A DNA stretch of 64,000 nucleotides from Verrucomicrobium sp. Its GTDB lineage: Bacteria; Verrucomicrobiota; Verrucomicrobiia; Methylacidiphilales; UBA1321. Each line of letters starts with the position of its first letter. The stretch's first letter is position 1. Of this stretch, positions 4,055 to 10,243 are shown piece by piece. The notes beneath the pieces are model-generated. The model had not been told where the DNA came from. It worked only from the letters and a program-made list of their open reading frames with translations, and ran no database searches. Location of the stretch: NCBI GenBank assembly GCA_017849585.1, contig JAFIGT010000030.1, positions 62,001-126,000 on the forward strand. The letters run 5' to 3'. The translations under genes and the position numbers were made by a program.

Positions 4055-4603
4055 ATGCTGCGGAACTCGTTCGCATTGATCATCATCGCTTTTTTTCTCG
4101 CGTTGGCTCAGGCCGAGGAAAAAATCGCCAGCGCCACCTCGGTTGAAACCAAGGAGGAAGCGCGCCCCGCGGTGGAGACCGATTTCAAAAAGGCGCCGTC
4201 CATCGATCCGAATATCAAGATCACCAAGATTCATGAGTTCCGCAACGATGAGCACTACAATCCCGGAGGCAATCCGGCGCTCGAATTTGAACAGCTTTAC
4301 TGGAACCACGGAGCCATTCTGGGTGACGAAATTGAAAGTCGCCGCGGTCATTATTTCGTGATCTCTTGGGCGAATAAGGGCCCGGCAGCCAATTTCACCA
4401 CCCGCTTTGAATACCGACAGGTCAAGACAAAGGATGTCGTGCGCGTCCTGACCATGGATCACTCCAATGTAAAGGGAGCCTCCCGCTCTACATTTGCAGT
4501 GCTGGGCGATGCCTACCGCGCCTACGGGCCGGTGGTTTCCTGGCGCTTCACGGTGCTACAGGGGGGCAAGGTCGTCGGAGAAGAAAAATCCTTTATCTGG
4601 TAA
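4055..4603 (+). CDS. Secreted protein of unknown function
   Basis: The 182-residue protein has a clear signal peptide (about 20 residues ending ALAQAEE). The mature part has no family I recognise. It contains an acidic/lysine-rich stretch and then a beta-rich region with regularly spaced aromatics (HYFVISWANKGPAANFTTRF, VVSWRFTVLQGGKVVGEEKS) that would suit an Ig-like or immunoglobulin-fold domain. It is followed after 5 bp by the ExbB-like gene and is probably co-transcribed with it, so a periplasmic role linked to that system is possible but unproven. Confidence 0.6.
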   Translation: MLRNSFALIIIAFFLALAQAEEKIASATSVETKEEARPAVETDFKKAPSIDPNIKITKIHEFRNDEHYNPGGNPALEFEQLYWNHGAILGDEIESRRGHYFVISWANKGPAANFTTRFEYRQVKTKDVVRVLTMDHSNVKGASRSTFAVLGDAYRAYGPVVSWRFTVLQGGKVVGEEKSFIW

Positions 4604-4608
4604 CTCCC

Positions 4609-5328
4609 ATGTATTCCCTTCTGGCACAGCTCCCCACTCCCCCCCTGCAAGAAAGCGTCGGCCTGTTCGACGTCATGCAAAAGGGCGGGTTGATGATGTG
4701 GTTCATCTTTGCGGCGAGCATTGTCGCCGCGGGCGTTTTTGTGGAGCGGCTTTTGTTTTTTCATCGGTGCCGGTTGCAGGTCGGGGAATTTCTCACAGGC
4801 ATCAAAAGTCTTGTTCGGAGACGTCAATTCGTCGAAGCGCTCGAACGCTGCGATGATGGCTATGGACCGGTTGTTAATGTGGTGCGCGCTGCGATTAGCA
4901 AGCGCAATTACAATCCGTCCGAACTGCGGGAGATCATCAAGGAAAGCGCCCAGCTCGAGATGCCTGCACTCGAGGCGAATTTACCCCTTTTAGCCACGGT
5001 TGGTTATGTGGCTCCACTGTTCGGTCTGCTTGGAACGGTGCTGGGGATGATCGACGCTTTTATTCAAATCAGCCGATCCAGCGGAGCTGCTCCGGTGGGC
5101 GATCTTGCGGGCGGCATCTGGATGGCTCTCGTGGCAACTGCGGCGGGTCTTTCGGTTTCGATTCCGGCTTACGTGGCGTACAATTATCTGGTCTCACGCT
5201 TGAACCATCTCATTTTTGACATGGAGCGGGCTGGAATTGAAATGGTGCATGTGCTGACCGAACCGGCTCAACCGGATATTATCGCGATGCCAGCCAGCGA
5301 GTCACCGGTGGCCAGCAAACAGGCCTGA
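4609..5328 (+). CDS. exbB: ExbB/TolQ-family inner-membrane protein lacking the conserved TM3 glutamate
   Basis: The 239-residue protein has the three-helix MotA/TolQ/ExbB layout: TM1 about 26-50, a cytoplasmic loop about 55-125, TM2 about 126-155 and TM3 about 165-195. The family normally forms a pentamer that powers TonB with ExbD. Pore threonines are kept: Thr143 in LLGTVLGM and Thr177 in VATAAGL. The glutamate five residues before the second threonine (Glu176 in E. coli ExbB) is Met172 here, in GIWMALVATAAGL (codon 5122-5124). The gene follows the secreted protein gene by 5 bp and is followed after 10 bp by a polysaccharide lyase gene rather than by exbD. The family is certain; whether it conducts protons is not. 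Confidence 0.88.
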   Translation: MYSLLAQLPTPPLQESVGLFDVMQKGGLMMWFIFAASIVAAGVFVERLLFFHRCRLQVGEFLTGIKSLVRRRQFVEALERCDDGYGPVVNVVRAAISKRNYNPSELREIIKESAQLEMPALEANLPLLATVGYVAPLFGLLGTVLGMIDAFIQISRSSGAAPVGDLAGGIWMALVATAAGLSVSIPAYVAYNYLVSRLNHLIFDMERAGIEMVHVLTEPAQPDIIAMPASESPVASKQA

Positions 5329-5338
5329 TCTTCTCCCC

Positions 5339-7378
5339 TTGCATCGCTTTCTCTTGCTGCCATTCCTGCTTCTCCTGGCTTGGTTGGGAGGAACTACGAA
5401 TGTCGTGCGGGCCCAGACGCCGGATGATCCCGCCGCGAAACCGGCATGGACCAAGGGAGGTGAGTCACTGCCGCCGTTTCCGAAGAACGAGCCGGAAAAG
5501 TTTCTGGCCGATTTGAAGCTCCTCCGAAGCGACGGTAAGCGTAACCAAACCGCGCGTGAAGATTGGGACGGGGCGCGGTCGCGTGTCGCCGATTCGTCCG
5601 AGTGGAAAGACTGGCTGGCAAAACGACGCGCGGCGGTGGATCAATGGATGGCCAAACACCAGGATCGCGCCGGATGGAAAGCGGGCTGGCATCATGATTT
5701 CGTGAGTCCGAAGGATGGTTCTTTCCTGGTCTGGACAGAAGCCATTCCGGGCGAGGAAGTGAAGACCTTCACCGACAAATCAGGCGCATCGGTGGAGATT
5801 ACGCCGAAGCTCATGGACGCATGGGTGTATCGTTTTCGGGGCAGGCATCTGGAACAGATGATTGAAGCGGCCCGGCTTTATCGCCTGACAGGCGAAACGC
5901 GCTATGCCGAATGGGCGGCGAGTCAGCTGGACTTCTACGCCACGAATCTCACGCAATGGCCGATCACCAAGGCCAAGGGGAATTATGCCCGTCTTGGCTG
6001 CCAGAGTCTGGATGACGCCATGATGTTGACCAAGTTGACCGAGACAACGCGACTGCTTTTCGACTGGGCGGGACCGGAGCGACGGCAAATGTGGTTCGAC
6101 CAGTTGCTCAAGCCCGAGGTGGAGCTTCTTGATCGCTCGTTTCAAACCATTCACAACATCGCGACGTGGCATCGCTCGGCGCAGGCGAGCGTGGCGTTGC
6201 TGTACAAGGATGAAGAAATGTGGCGGCGCGTGGTCGACGGAAAGTATGGCTTGCGGGCGCAGATCCGACATGGCGTGACGAGTGATTATTTCTGGTACGA
6301 GCAATCGATGGGTTACAATTCGTTCGTCGTACTGGCCACGCTGCCACTTTTTGAATTGGCTGATTTACTGGGAGAACAGGGCCGCGTGTGTGAAGAGTCG
6401 GCCATTATCGAAAACATGATGCTGGCTCCGTTCACGATTCGCTTTCCTGACGGCACCCTGCCCAATCCGGCGGACCAGACCGGACTGCCACGCATCCCCT
6501 ACTCGCTCCTGCAGCAAGCCTCTCGCGTGTGGCCTACTACGATTGGACTCAAGCAAGCGCAAGCCGCCAAGACCTGGGATGCGCTACTCGATCCCCGGTC
6601 TTCACCTCTGGGTGACGACAGCTTGCCCAAGGTGGCCTCGTCGCATCTGGAATCGACCCGCTTTGCGCAACTCGTCAGTGGTCCCTGGCAGGTGTTCTTT
6701 CACTACGGCCAACTCGCCCGTTCTCACGCACAGGACGAGGCGCTCAATTGGTCCGCCTCCTATAATGGCATCGATGTCAGCCACGATGCGGGCACGGTCG
6801 GCTACGGTTCGCCTCTCTCCAGCGGCTACTATCGGCGTGGACTCACCCATAATGTGCCGCTGATGAATGGCGAGGGCGAGGAATCATGGCATCGTGGAGC
6901 GATGGTGCGCTTTGATGCCGAGGCGGCGGTCATGTCTGCCGAGCAACCACAGTATCGACCGAATGCCAGCGCGCGGCGGACCTTGCGCATTGAAGGCGAC
7001 ACGCTGATTGATGAAGCCACCATTGTCTCCACGTCGGAAACTCCCGCCAAACTCGGACTGGCGCTGCATCTTCAGGGCAAGGCGCAACTTGGCGAGGCAT
7101 TTCAACCTGTGGCCAATTTTGCGGAGGGGCGTCCGGAGGCTTTCAACTATTGGAAAGAGGTTCGATCTGCGACATTCAAGGATGGCGCGACCCTGGATGT
7201 GACCTTCCCGAAAAATCTCGTACTGCGTGTGGAGTTTTCCGTGCCCGGCACATTCACGCTTTACACTGGTTCCTCTCCCGATCAACCACCCGCGCGACGC
7301 ACGGGGTTTTATCTGGAGATCCCCGGACGCGAAGCGACATTCGTCACGCGCTTGAGGCCGATCAAATCTTCGCCGTAA
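5339..7378 (+). CDS. Secreted heparinase II/III-type polysaccharide lyase
   Basis: The 679-residue protein starts from TTG with a good signal peptide of about 26 residues. An alpha-helical toroid region (about 100-420) contains HNIATWH (His272, Asn273, His278), which resembles the catalytic loop of alginate-lyase-like and heparinase-II/III-like enzymes. The C-terminal half is beta-rich and carries SHDAGTVGYG (His482) and LTHNVPLMNGEGE (His504), matching the heparinase II/III-like domain. Such enzymes cleave uronic-acid polysaccharides by beta-elimination; the substrate cannot be told from sequence alone. It sits between the ExbB-like and ExbD-like genes, an unusual place that suggests co-expression with an uptake system. 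No sulfatase or other lyase is near. Confidence 0.8.
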   Translation: MHRFLLLPFLLLLAWLGGTTNVVRAQTPDDPAAKPAWTKGGESLPPFPKNEPEKFLADLKLLRSDGKRNQTAREDWDGARSRVADSSEWKDWLAKRRAAVDQWMAKHQDRAGWKAGWHHDFVSPKDGSFLVWTEAIPGEEVKTFTDKSGASVEITPKLMDAWVYRFRGRHLEQMIEAARLYRLTGETRYAEWAASQLDFYATNLTQWPITKAKGNYARLGCQSLDDAMMLTKLTETTRLLFDWAGPERRQMWFDQLLKPEVELLDRSFQTIHNIATWHRSAQASVALLYKDEEMWRRVVDGKYGLRAQIRHGVTSDYFWYEQSMGYNSFVVLATLPLFELADLLGEQGRVCEESAIIENMMLAPFTIRFPDGTLPNPADQTGLPRIPYSLLQQASRVWPTTIGLKQAQAAKTWDALLDPRSSPLGDDSLPKVASSHLESTRFAQLVSGPWQVFFHYGQLARSHAQDEALNWSASYNGIDVSHDAGTVGYGSPLSSGYYRRGLTHNVPLMNGEGEESWHRGAMVRFDAEAAVMSAEQPQYRPNASARRTLRIEGDTLIDEATIVSTSETPAKLGLALHLQGKAQLGEAFQPVANFAEGRPEAFNYWKEVRSATFKDGATLDVTFPKNLVLRVEFSVPGTFTLYTGSSPDQPPARRTGFYLEIPGREATFVTRLRPIKSSP

Positions 7379-7536
7379 TTCTCGCATTGAGTGTGGCTTA
7401 AGCAGCCCCCATTTCGATCGCTTCATTTTCCCTCTAGCCATCTCAAAATCCTTTTGGTATATCCAACTATGGGTCAATTAACGTCACCACAGTCTCCGCT
7501 TTTTCCCCTGCGGACAAGTCATCGAGGTGACCGGTC

Positions 7537-7998
7537 ATGATCAAACTGCCCCGCCACTTTCAACCGCTCCGTGGTCCCATCGATATGGCTCCGCTCATCG
7601 GAGTGGTACTGCTTCTGCTGCTCTTTTTCATGCTTGGCTCCACGTTTGTCCTGCAGCCCGGCATCCGGGTGGACCCGCCGCGCAGTCTTTATGGCGCGGG
7701 CGCTCCGTCGAATACCTTCATTGTCACTGTCATGCTCGAAGCCGAACGGCGCGATCCCACCACGGGCGTTGCGATGCCCCGGCAACCCGTCATCTTCTTC
7801 AACGACCAGATTCTGGCCTTGCCGGATCTGCAGAAGGCCTTGCAGCAATTGAATAAAAAGCGGACCAATACGCCGCTCGTGCTCAAGGCGGACAAGGATG
7901 TCCCCTTGGGACTGCTCACCGATATTATGAATGCGGCCATGGCAAACGGTCTTTCCGTTGTCATTGCCACGCAGCAAGCCGATGGACCCAATCAATAA
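7537..7998 (+). CDS. exbD: ExbD/TolR-family protein lacking the conserved membrane aspartate
   Basis: The 153-residue protein has the ExbD layout: a short cytoplasmic N-terminus, a single membrane helix (about 18-38) and a periplasmic domain ending in a typical ADKDVPLGLLTDIMNAA helix-strand region. ExbD and TolR normally carry one essential aspartate in the helix (Asp25 of E. coli ExbD, in a PLIDVV context). Here the segment reads IDMAPLIGVVLLLLLFFML with Gly22 (codon 7600-7602, GGA) at that place; the nearest acid is Asp16 at the membrane edge. The periplasmic domain has an extra insertion (about 62-85). A 158-bp gap separates it from the lyase gene, so it may have its own promoter. It overlaps the TonB gene by 17 bp. 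Confidence 0.85.
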   Translation: MIKLPRHFQPLRGPIDMAPLIGVVLLLLLFFMLGSTFVLQPGIRVDPPRSLYGAGAPSNTFIVTVMLEAERRDPTTGVAMPRQPVIFFNDQILALPDLQKALQQLNKKRTNTPLVLKADKDVPLGLLTDIMNAAMANGLSVVIATQQADGPNQ

Positions 7999-9064: not shown

Positions 9065-10243
9065 ATGGGAATGTGGATTGGTAGAAATCGTAAAGCCCGT
9101 GTTACCTACGGATTTGATGAAATTGCGCTCGTGCCCGGTGAGGTGACCATTAACCCGAACGAAGTCGATACCTCGTTCGAAATCCCGACCCCGTCTGGTG
9201 AGCCGATCAAGTTGAAGATCCCGATCATCGCCAGCGCGATGGACGGCGTCACCGATGTTCGTTTTTGCATCGAAATGGGAAAACTCGGCGGCCTCGGGGT
9301 GATCAACCTCGAAGGCATTCAGACCCGCTACGAGAACCCGCGCGAAGTGTTGGAGAAAATCCTGACTGCCGACAAGGCGCATGTCACGGAGCTGATCCAG
9401 AAGATGTACCTCGAGCCGATCAAGGAGGAATTGATCAGCAAGCGCATCCGTGAATTGAAGGACGCCGGTGTCGTGGCCGCCGTTTCCTCGATCCCGCAGA
9501 AGGCCGACCGTTATGGTGCCATCGCGGCCGAAGCCGGTGTGGATGTGTTCGTCGTGCAGTCGACCGTTTCGACGGTTCGCCATATCGCGACGGAATACAA
9601 GTCCCTCGACCTCGCGGCGTTTTGCAAAAAGATGAAAGCCCCCGTCATGGTGGGTAACGCGGTGACTTACAATGTCGTGCTCGAACTGATGGAATGTGGC
9701 GTGGCCGGCGTTCTCATCGGTGTCGGCCCCGGCGCCGCTTGTACGTCCCGTGGCGTGCTCGGCCTCGGAGTACCCCAGGTCACAGCGACGGTCGATTCCG
9801 CCGCGGCCCGCGACGCCTACTTCAAGAAGACCGGCCGTTATGTGCCGATCATCACCGATGGCGGTATGTCCAAGGGCGGAGACGTTTGCAAGGCGCTTGC
9901 CGCTGGTTCCGATGCAGTCATGGTTGGTTCTGCGTTTGCCCGAGCGGAAGAATCTCCGGGACATGGTTTCCATTGGGGCATGGCCACGCCTCACGCCAAC
10001 CTGCCGCGCGGTACGCGCATTCAGGTGGGCGTCACCGGCTCGCTCAAGCAAGTCTTGTTCGGCCCAGCCACCGTCGATGACGGCTCCCAGAATCTCGTCG
10101 GCGCCATTGCGACCTGCATGGGCTGCGTGGGCGCTTCGACGATTCGCGAGTTCCAGGAAACCGAAATCATCATTGCCCCGTCCATCAAGACGGAAGGCAA
10201 GCTCTTCCAGATGGTGCAAGCCGTCGGGATGGGTACGAAATAA
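9065..10243 (+). CDS. guaB3: GuaB3-family IMP dehydrogenase-like protein
   Basis: The 392-residue protein is a TIM-barrel IMPDH/GMPR-family enzyme without CBS domains. The catalytic loop GPGAACTSRGVLG carries Cys226, and DGG with GSDAVMVGS forms the phosphate site. The N-terminus (RKARVTYGFDEIALVPG) and C-terminus (IIAPSIKTEGK) are those of the GuaB3 subgroup, and the whole resembles the cyanobacterial form more than the actinobacterial one as I recall them. Canonical IMPDH converts IMP to XMP with NAD+. Its position ahead of guaA, which uses XMP, supports an IMPDH role here, but that is inference. A strong terminator follows it, so guaA is probably a separate transcript. Confidence 0.85.
   Translation: MGMWIGRNRKARVTYGFDEIALVPGEVTINPNEVDTSFEIPTPSGEPIKLKIPIIASAMDGVTDVRFCIEMGKLGGLGVINLEGIQTRYENPREVLEKILTADKAHVTELIQKMYLEPIKEELISKRIRELKDAGVVAAVSSIPQKADRYGAIAAEAGVDVFVVQSTVSTVRHIATEYKSLDLAAFCKKMKAPVMVGNAVTYNVVLELMECGVAGVLIGVGPGAACTSRGVLGLGVPQVTATVDSAAARDAYFKKTGRYVPIITDGGMSKGGDVCKALAAGSDAVMVGSAFARAEESPGHGFHWGMATPHANLPRGTRIQVGVTGSLKQVLFGPATVDDGSQNLVGAIATCMGCVGASTIREFQETEIIIAPSIKTEGKLFQMVQAVGMGTK

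Follow-up and report, generated by a model that had tools for sequence, protein, structure and literature searches.

Repeated loss of the membrane aspartate of ExbD at an exbB-exbD-tonB locus linked to guaB

The window (the whole stretch of 64,000 nucleotides analysed here) contains an exbB-exbD-tonB gene set whose ExbD has lost the aspartate of its membrane helix, and the same loss recurs at the orthologous locus across the class. The Asp-less proteins are under purifying selection, and the gene set probably has a function that is not driven by protons. Judging from sequence comparison, we put at about even the chance that it encodes a repeatedly evolved ExbB-ExbD-TonB complex without the Asp proton cycle, which would most likely be a passive or signalling tether in the envelope.

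Results

Genes of the locus and their families

The genes and the two codons at issue are listed in Table 1. The local proteins belong to the ExbB and ExbD families by sequence and by fold. ExbB scores 110.3 bits against Pfam MotA_ExbB (PF01618; curated cut-off 22.9) and ExbD 70 bits against PF02472 (ExbD/TolR; curated cut-off 25.4), and the TonB-like protein exceeds the cut-offs of both Pfam TonB_C (PF03544; 31.6 bits against 24.6) and TIGR01352 (45.4 against 27.1). The AlphaFold model of ExbD (mean pLDDT 78) has a helix at residues 18-38 and keeps the periplasmic ExbD/TolR fold, and the top Foldseek matches of this model are ExbD 8pek, ExbD 8vgc and TolR 5by4. For the tonB-like gene, an alternative in-frame ATG further upstream, at 7931, is a possible start.

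Table 1. Features of the exbB-exbD-tonB-guaB locus (positions in the window)
Feature	Position	Strand	Description
Gene for secreted 182-aa protein	4055..4603	+	signal-peptide-like N terminus, predicted beta-sandwich; directly upstream of exbB
exbB-like gene, 239 aa	4609..5328	+	MotA_ExbB family
Met172 codon ATG of ExbB	5122..5124	+	position of E. coli ExbB Glu176; variable in the family
Alginate lyase / heparinase II-III-like gene, 679 aa	5339..7378	+	between exbB and exbD
exbD-like gene, 153 aa	7537..7998	+	one membrane helix (18-38) and periplasmic ExbD/TolR domain
Gly22 codon GGA of ExbD	7600..7602	+	position of the essential Asp25
tonB-like gene, 281 aa	7982..8827	+	TonB_C domain, membrane His41
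guaB-like gene	9065..10243	+	IMP dehydrogenase, named from sequence; syntenic marker in most families of the class

When aligned with solved structures, ExbB has its Met172 (within GIWMALVATAAGL) at the position of E. coli Glu176, and its pore threonines 143 and 177 correspond to Thr148 and Thr181. Gly22 of ExbD (within PLIGVVLLLLLFFM) aligns with Asp25 of the solved ExbD 7ajq. Codons and alignments agree, so that the two substitutions reported in the initial annotation are confirmed, as is its observation that the pore threonines and the membrane His of the TonB-like protein are retained; this His is kept in 40 of the 41 readable orthologues. A complex with ExbD Gly22 alone would be unable to run the Asp25 proton cycle. 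As the proton-binding Asp of the inner-subunit membrane helix, which defines the proton-driven 5:2 motors (ExbBD, TolQR, MotAB), is replaced here by Gly22, we do not class the complex as such a motor.

Loss of the ExbD aspartate is the exceptional half of the observation

At the loci compared in genomes of the same class, 54 of the 98 other ExbBs carry Glu at position 172, while 23 carry Gln, 13 Gly and 4 Ala. The position of E. coli Glu176 is thus freely variable in ExbBs, and Met172 is ordinary. In ExbD paralogues with a readable Asp25 position, Asp was found in 108 of 108 (17 genomes of the order, this one included), and Asp is likewise present in all paralogues observed in 7 genomes from other families; this control for invariance covers genomes of this class only. 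Glu in ExbB and Asp in ExbD had both been taken as family residues. That holds for the Asp (108/108) and not for the Glu, which at 54 of 98 is no invariant. Loss of Asp25 in ExbD is therefore the exceptional half of the observation, and the ExbB half is ordinary.

We also noted a paralogous class of ExbBs with Val at the pore Thr181 position, whose ExbD partner still has Asp (loci L113, L117, L127, L130-L132, L143, L160, L163, L165, L166 and L177). In the genome of the window, an ExbB/MotA-family match lies at G000:C2:55206-55499, on a contig with no ExbD match.

The locus across the class

The locus has matches, mostly orthologues, in 58 of 60 relatives. Orthologues were tabulated for 47 genomes within the order and for genomes from additional orders of the class; many of these genomes are drafts. 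The gene order exbB-exbD-tonB-guaB recurs across families of the class, and this recurring synteny with guaB supports the orthology of the locus. Within the order, ExbB172/ExbD22 is Glu/Asp in families f4, f5 and f6 and in genus f2_g4, Thr/Asp in f3 and Glu/Asn in genus f2_g12. Family f1 has Met, Leu or Thr at ExbB172 together with Gly, Asn, Thr, Ser or Met at ExbD22, the exception being genome G001 with Met/Asp. Thr or Ala is combined with Asn or Thr in family f8, and Met, Val or Ala with Thr or Asn in family f9, some of whose genomes are single contigs. Outside the order, Asn is the most frequent residue at ExbD22 in the class, Thr and Ser also occur, and some families have Asp. Class-wide, most families have Asn, Thr, Ser, Gly or Met at this position, and some have Asp.

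These combinations do not bear out the idea that the two acids were lost as a pair. G001, of the same genus as the genome of the window, has Met172 with Asp22, which separates the ExbB change from the ExbD change; f2_g12 shows Glu172 with Asn22 and f3 Thr172 with Asp22, and residue 172 also varies among the ExbB partners of Asp-bearing ExbDs. Independent pairs on the tree, few in number, likewise gave no support for linked losses of Glu in ExbB and Asp in ExbD.

Of the genomes compared, only this one (G000) and G002 have the lyase gene inserted between exbB and exbD; the locus lacks it in the remaining relatives, and the proposed link of the complex to the lyase is accordingly abandoned. G000 and G002, the two genomes with the lyase insertion, are also the two with Gly22, and their sister G001 has neither. 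The secreted 182-aa protein belongs to no Pfam or NCBIfam family. Some of its residues are invariant and its C-terminal SFIW is conserved; in families f1, f2, f3, f5, f6, f8, f9, f21 and f24 its gene immediately precedes exbB. Its predicted beta-sandwich (pLDDT 83) matched GH2 domains (Z ~9) and Amuc_1102 in a fold search, with no clear functional match. We rejected it as an obligate partner of the complex, since its relatives lie away from exbBD in other families.

Recurrence, selection and the question of error or decay

That the missing Asp could come from a sequencing or assembly error, or from a wrong start or alignment, is hardly credible. Gly22 is coded GGA in the genome of the window (43 contigs) and GGG in its near relative G002, which was assembled separately, and the use of different Gly codons in two independent assemblies shows that it is no sequencing error. 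The two ExbDs are 98% identical (dN 0.009, dS 0.273); G001 has Asp (GAC). Losses of the same kind are found in single-contig genomes, and the ExbD alignment is gap-free around P19 and F30-F31. What favours error is that apparent frameshifts occur at exbD in G035 and G036, which were excluded from the trees. The frameshifts (loci L060 in G035 and L058 in G036) fall within the membrane helix and may be sequencing errors or broken genes.

The number of losses was estimated on a tree built from ExbB and ExbD with the trait columns removed, which has long branches, and the direction of change was assumed from the universal Asp of the paralogues. At least 7 changes between Asp and non-Asp are forced by supported branches, and 10 occur on the best tree; if Asp is never regained, 12 losses are counted. 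Close homologues with the canonical acids had been named as evidence that would overturn the variant. For one of the two acids such a homologue exists, in G001 with its Asp; since the loss is recurrent, an Asp-less variant is not refuted by it.

ExbD dN/dS is 0.03-0.29 in Asp-less pairs compared with 0.05-0.11 in Asp-keeping pairs, and ExbB dN/dS in Asp-less pairs (0.03-0.22) overlaps that of Asp-keeping pairs. The Asp-less proteins remain under purifying selection, and this overlap speaks against a locus that has lost its function and is becoming a pseudogene, a reading that we regard as very unlikely. Its support comes from genus g3, where exbB is separated from exbD-tonB, from the 0.9 Mb genome G074, where exbB and a Ser22 exbD are intact beside guaB and the tonB-like gene is cut to ~70 codons, and from the faster evolution of TonB than of ExbBD. 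Set against these are the low dN/dS and the open frames maintained over many families and long branches, with retention across the depth of several families. With the Asp-less form spread over many families under purifying selection, and with the two Gly codons, error and simple decay are both unsupported as explanations.

Search for a replacement acid

No acid has been gained in the Asp-less lineages in any column of the ExbD helix, the ExbB helices or the TonB helix, and the core helix spans are without any acid in 30 of 45 Asp-less complexes, that of the window included. It had been suggested that Asp16 of ExbD, at the start of the helix, could substitute. Position 16 is Asp or Glu in all Asp22-keepers of the order; it is Asn or Leu in several Asp-less members of the order and Gly or Phe in some outside it. 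Position 16 is thus acidic where Asp22 is kept and unconserved where it is lost, and we discarded Asp16 as a substitute. An acid at position 149 of ExbB looked promising as compensation within the order and failed outside it. The membrane His of TonB is equally kept in Asp-keepers and in Asp-less lineages, and so does not compensate as a proton carrier for the loss.

In ExbB, Thr143 is invariant at the locus. Six losses of Thr177 are counted, all of them in Asp-less lineages, with a chance of ~0.08 estimated from branch lengths, so that the association with Asp loss is suggestive only. We do not take it as proof of pore decay, given this chance and the paralogous ExbB class that lacks this Thr too.

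The proteins could still use ions by another path, through a polar residue 22, Thr143 and Thr177, a water wire or the ExbB149 acid. We consider this quite unlikely. The commonest replacements at ExbD22 are Asn, Thr and Ser, Thr143 is invariant, and ExbB149, near the end of helix 2, is Asp or Glu here and in many Asp-less relatives. A key acid in the outer subunit is known from GldL-GldM, the 5:2 motor of type IX secretion, where GldL E49 is reported to be essential (PMC8986121). However, Gly and Met also occur at ExbD22, which argues against a conserved ion ligand; ExbB149 is Lys, Ser, Gln or Ala in other Asp-less lineages and Asp or Glu in some Asp-keepers; and Thr177 is gone from six Asp-less lineages. 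GldLM is a precedent for a relocated acid, but the ExbB helices of Asp-less lineages hold no equivalent conserved acid.

Discussion

The complex resembles the Ton motor of E. coli and Serratia in its homologous subunits, in the exbB-exbD-tonB order found in most relatives, in its pore threonines, in the ExbD membrane helix with its periplasmic domain, and in the membrane His and C-terminal domain of TonB. It differs in having Gly for ExbD Asp25 and Met for ExbB Glu176, in being linked to guaB and not to receptors, and in the lyase gene that splits exbB from exbD. As for the Tol motor, TolQ is the best NCBIfam model and PDB match for ExbB and TolR is the best for ExbD, but scores fall below the curated TolQ and TolR cut-offs, Asp23 of TolR is not kept and no tol-pal genes were seen at the locus. 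Proton cycling in E. coli is attributed to the side chain of Asp25, which is called essential, and ExbD(D25N) is inactive (PMC11658791; PMC12905483). No report of natural ExbDs without Asp25 was found in the literature searched, with most subscription journals outside the reach of the search.

We propose that exbB-exbD-tonB by guaB, a locus that is old in the class and was inherited vertically, may encode a complex of the ExbB5-ExbD2-TonB type. In most lineages of the class, the membrane Asp of its ExbD has been lost, many times independently, to residues unable to carry a proton. Such a complex would assemble like an Exb motor but without the Asp-based proton cycle, and may span the envelope as a passive or signalling tether, a 'pseudo-motor'. 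Asp-bearing Exb systems elsewhere in the genome would power the TonB-dependent receptors. The sequences show the residue states, the orthology, the recurrence of the loss, the purifying selection and the lack of a replacement acid; that the complex assembles 5:2, passes no protons and acts as a tether is what we infer. Of the initial proposal, a stator that does not use protons in the usual way or a degenerate or structural complex tied to the lyase, the part on protons is upheld by the missing ExbD Asp and the part on the lyase falls.

The distribution of the other Exb genes may point to a tether or relay. In the genome of the window, the contig with the match to the TonB-dependent receptor plug also carries a second, separate exbB-exbD-tonB operon, whose ExbD has Asp. 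G022, a draft of 87% completeness in which no plug domain was found, retains the guaB-linked locus. Another ExbD type is present in 15 of 16 plug-bearing genomes and absent from this draft. A counter-point to a passive role is that Thr143 and pore helix residues are kept, although a tether would not obviously need a pore.

The paralogues also allow a different reading, in which one ExbD of the pair is Asp-less and its partner, encoded in another operon, has the Asp; with one working Asp, such a mixed complex would restore the use of protons. Asp-bearing ExbDs do occur in every Asp-less genome whose ExbDs were examined, and even G074, the smallest genome with the locus, encodes one beside its Ser22 ExbD, so that it offers no case of a sole ExbD. 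We nevertheless think this pairing unlikely, as the other ExbDs of the genome of the window adjoin ExbBs of their own, which leaves no orphan to pair with, the gene for the Asp-less ExbD normally lies beside those for its own ExbB and TonB, and many paralogues are found in Asp-keepers too, so that paralogues do not track the loss. The non-motor tether or relay is therefore the favoured reading, followed by the mixed pairing, another ion route and decay.

The inner-subunit Asp is treated as indispensable in proton-driven 5:2 motors, and here it was removed many times at one orthologous locus at which the other parts of the complex were retained. It is conceivable, with a probability we would put a little short of even, that the whole class carries an Exb-type 5:2 complex in which ion coupling was repeatedly and stably given up and which was reused as a non-motor tether or sensor. 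Asp-less loci with close Asp-bearing sisters would be natural mutants that could reveal the role of the assembly without ion flow, or an alternative ion route. If our reading is true, a non-motor Exb-type complex would be the motor counterpart of a pseudo-enzyme.
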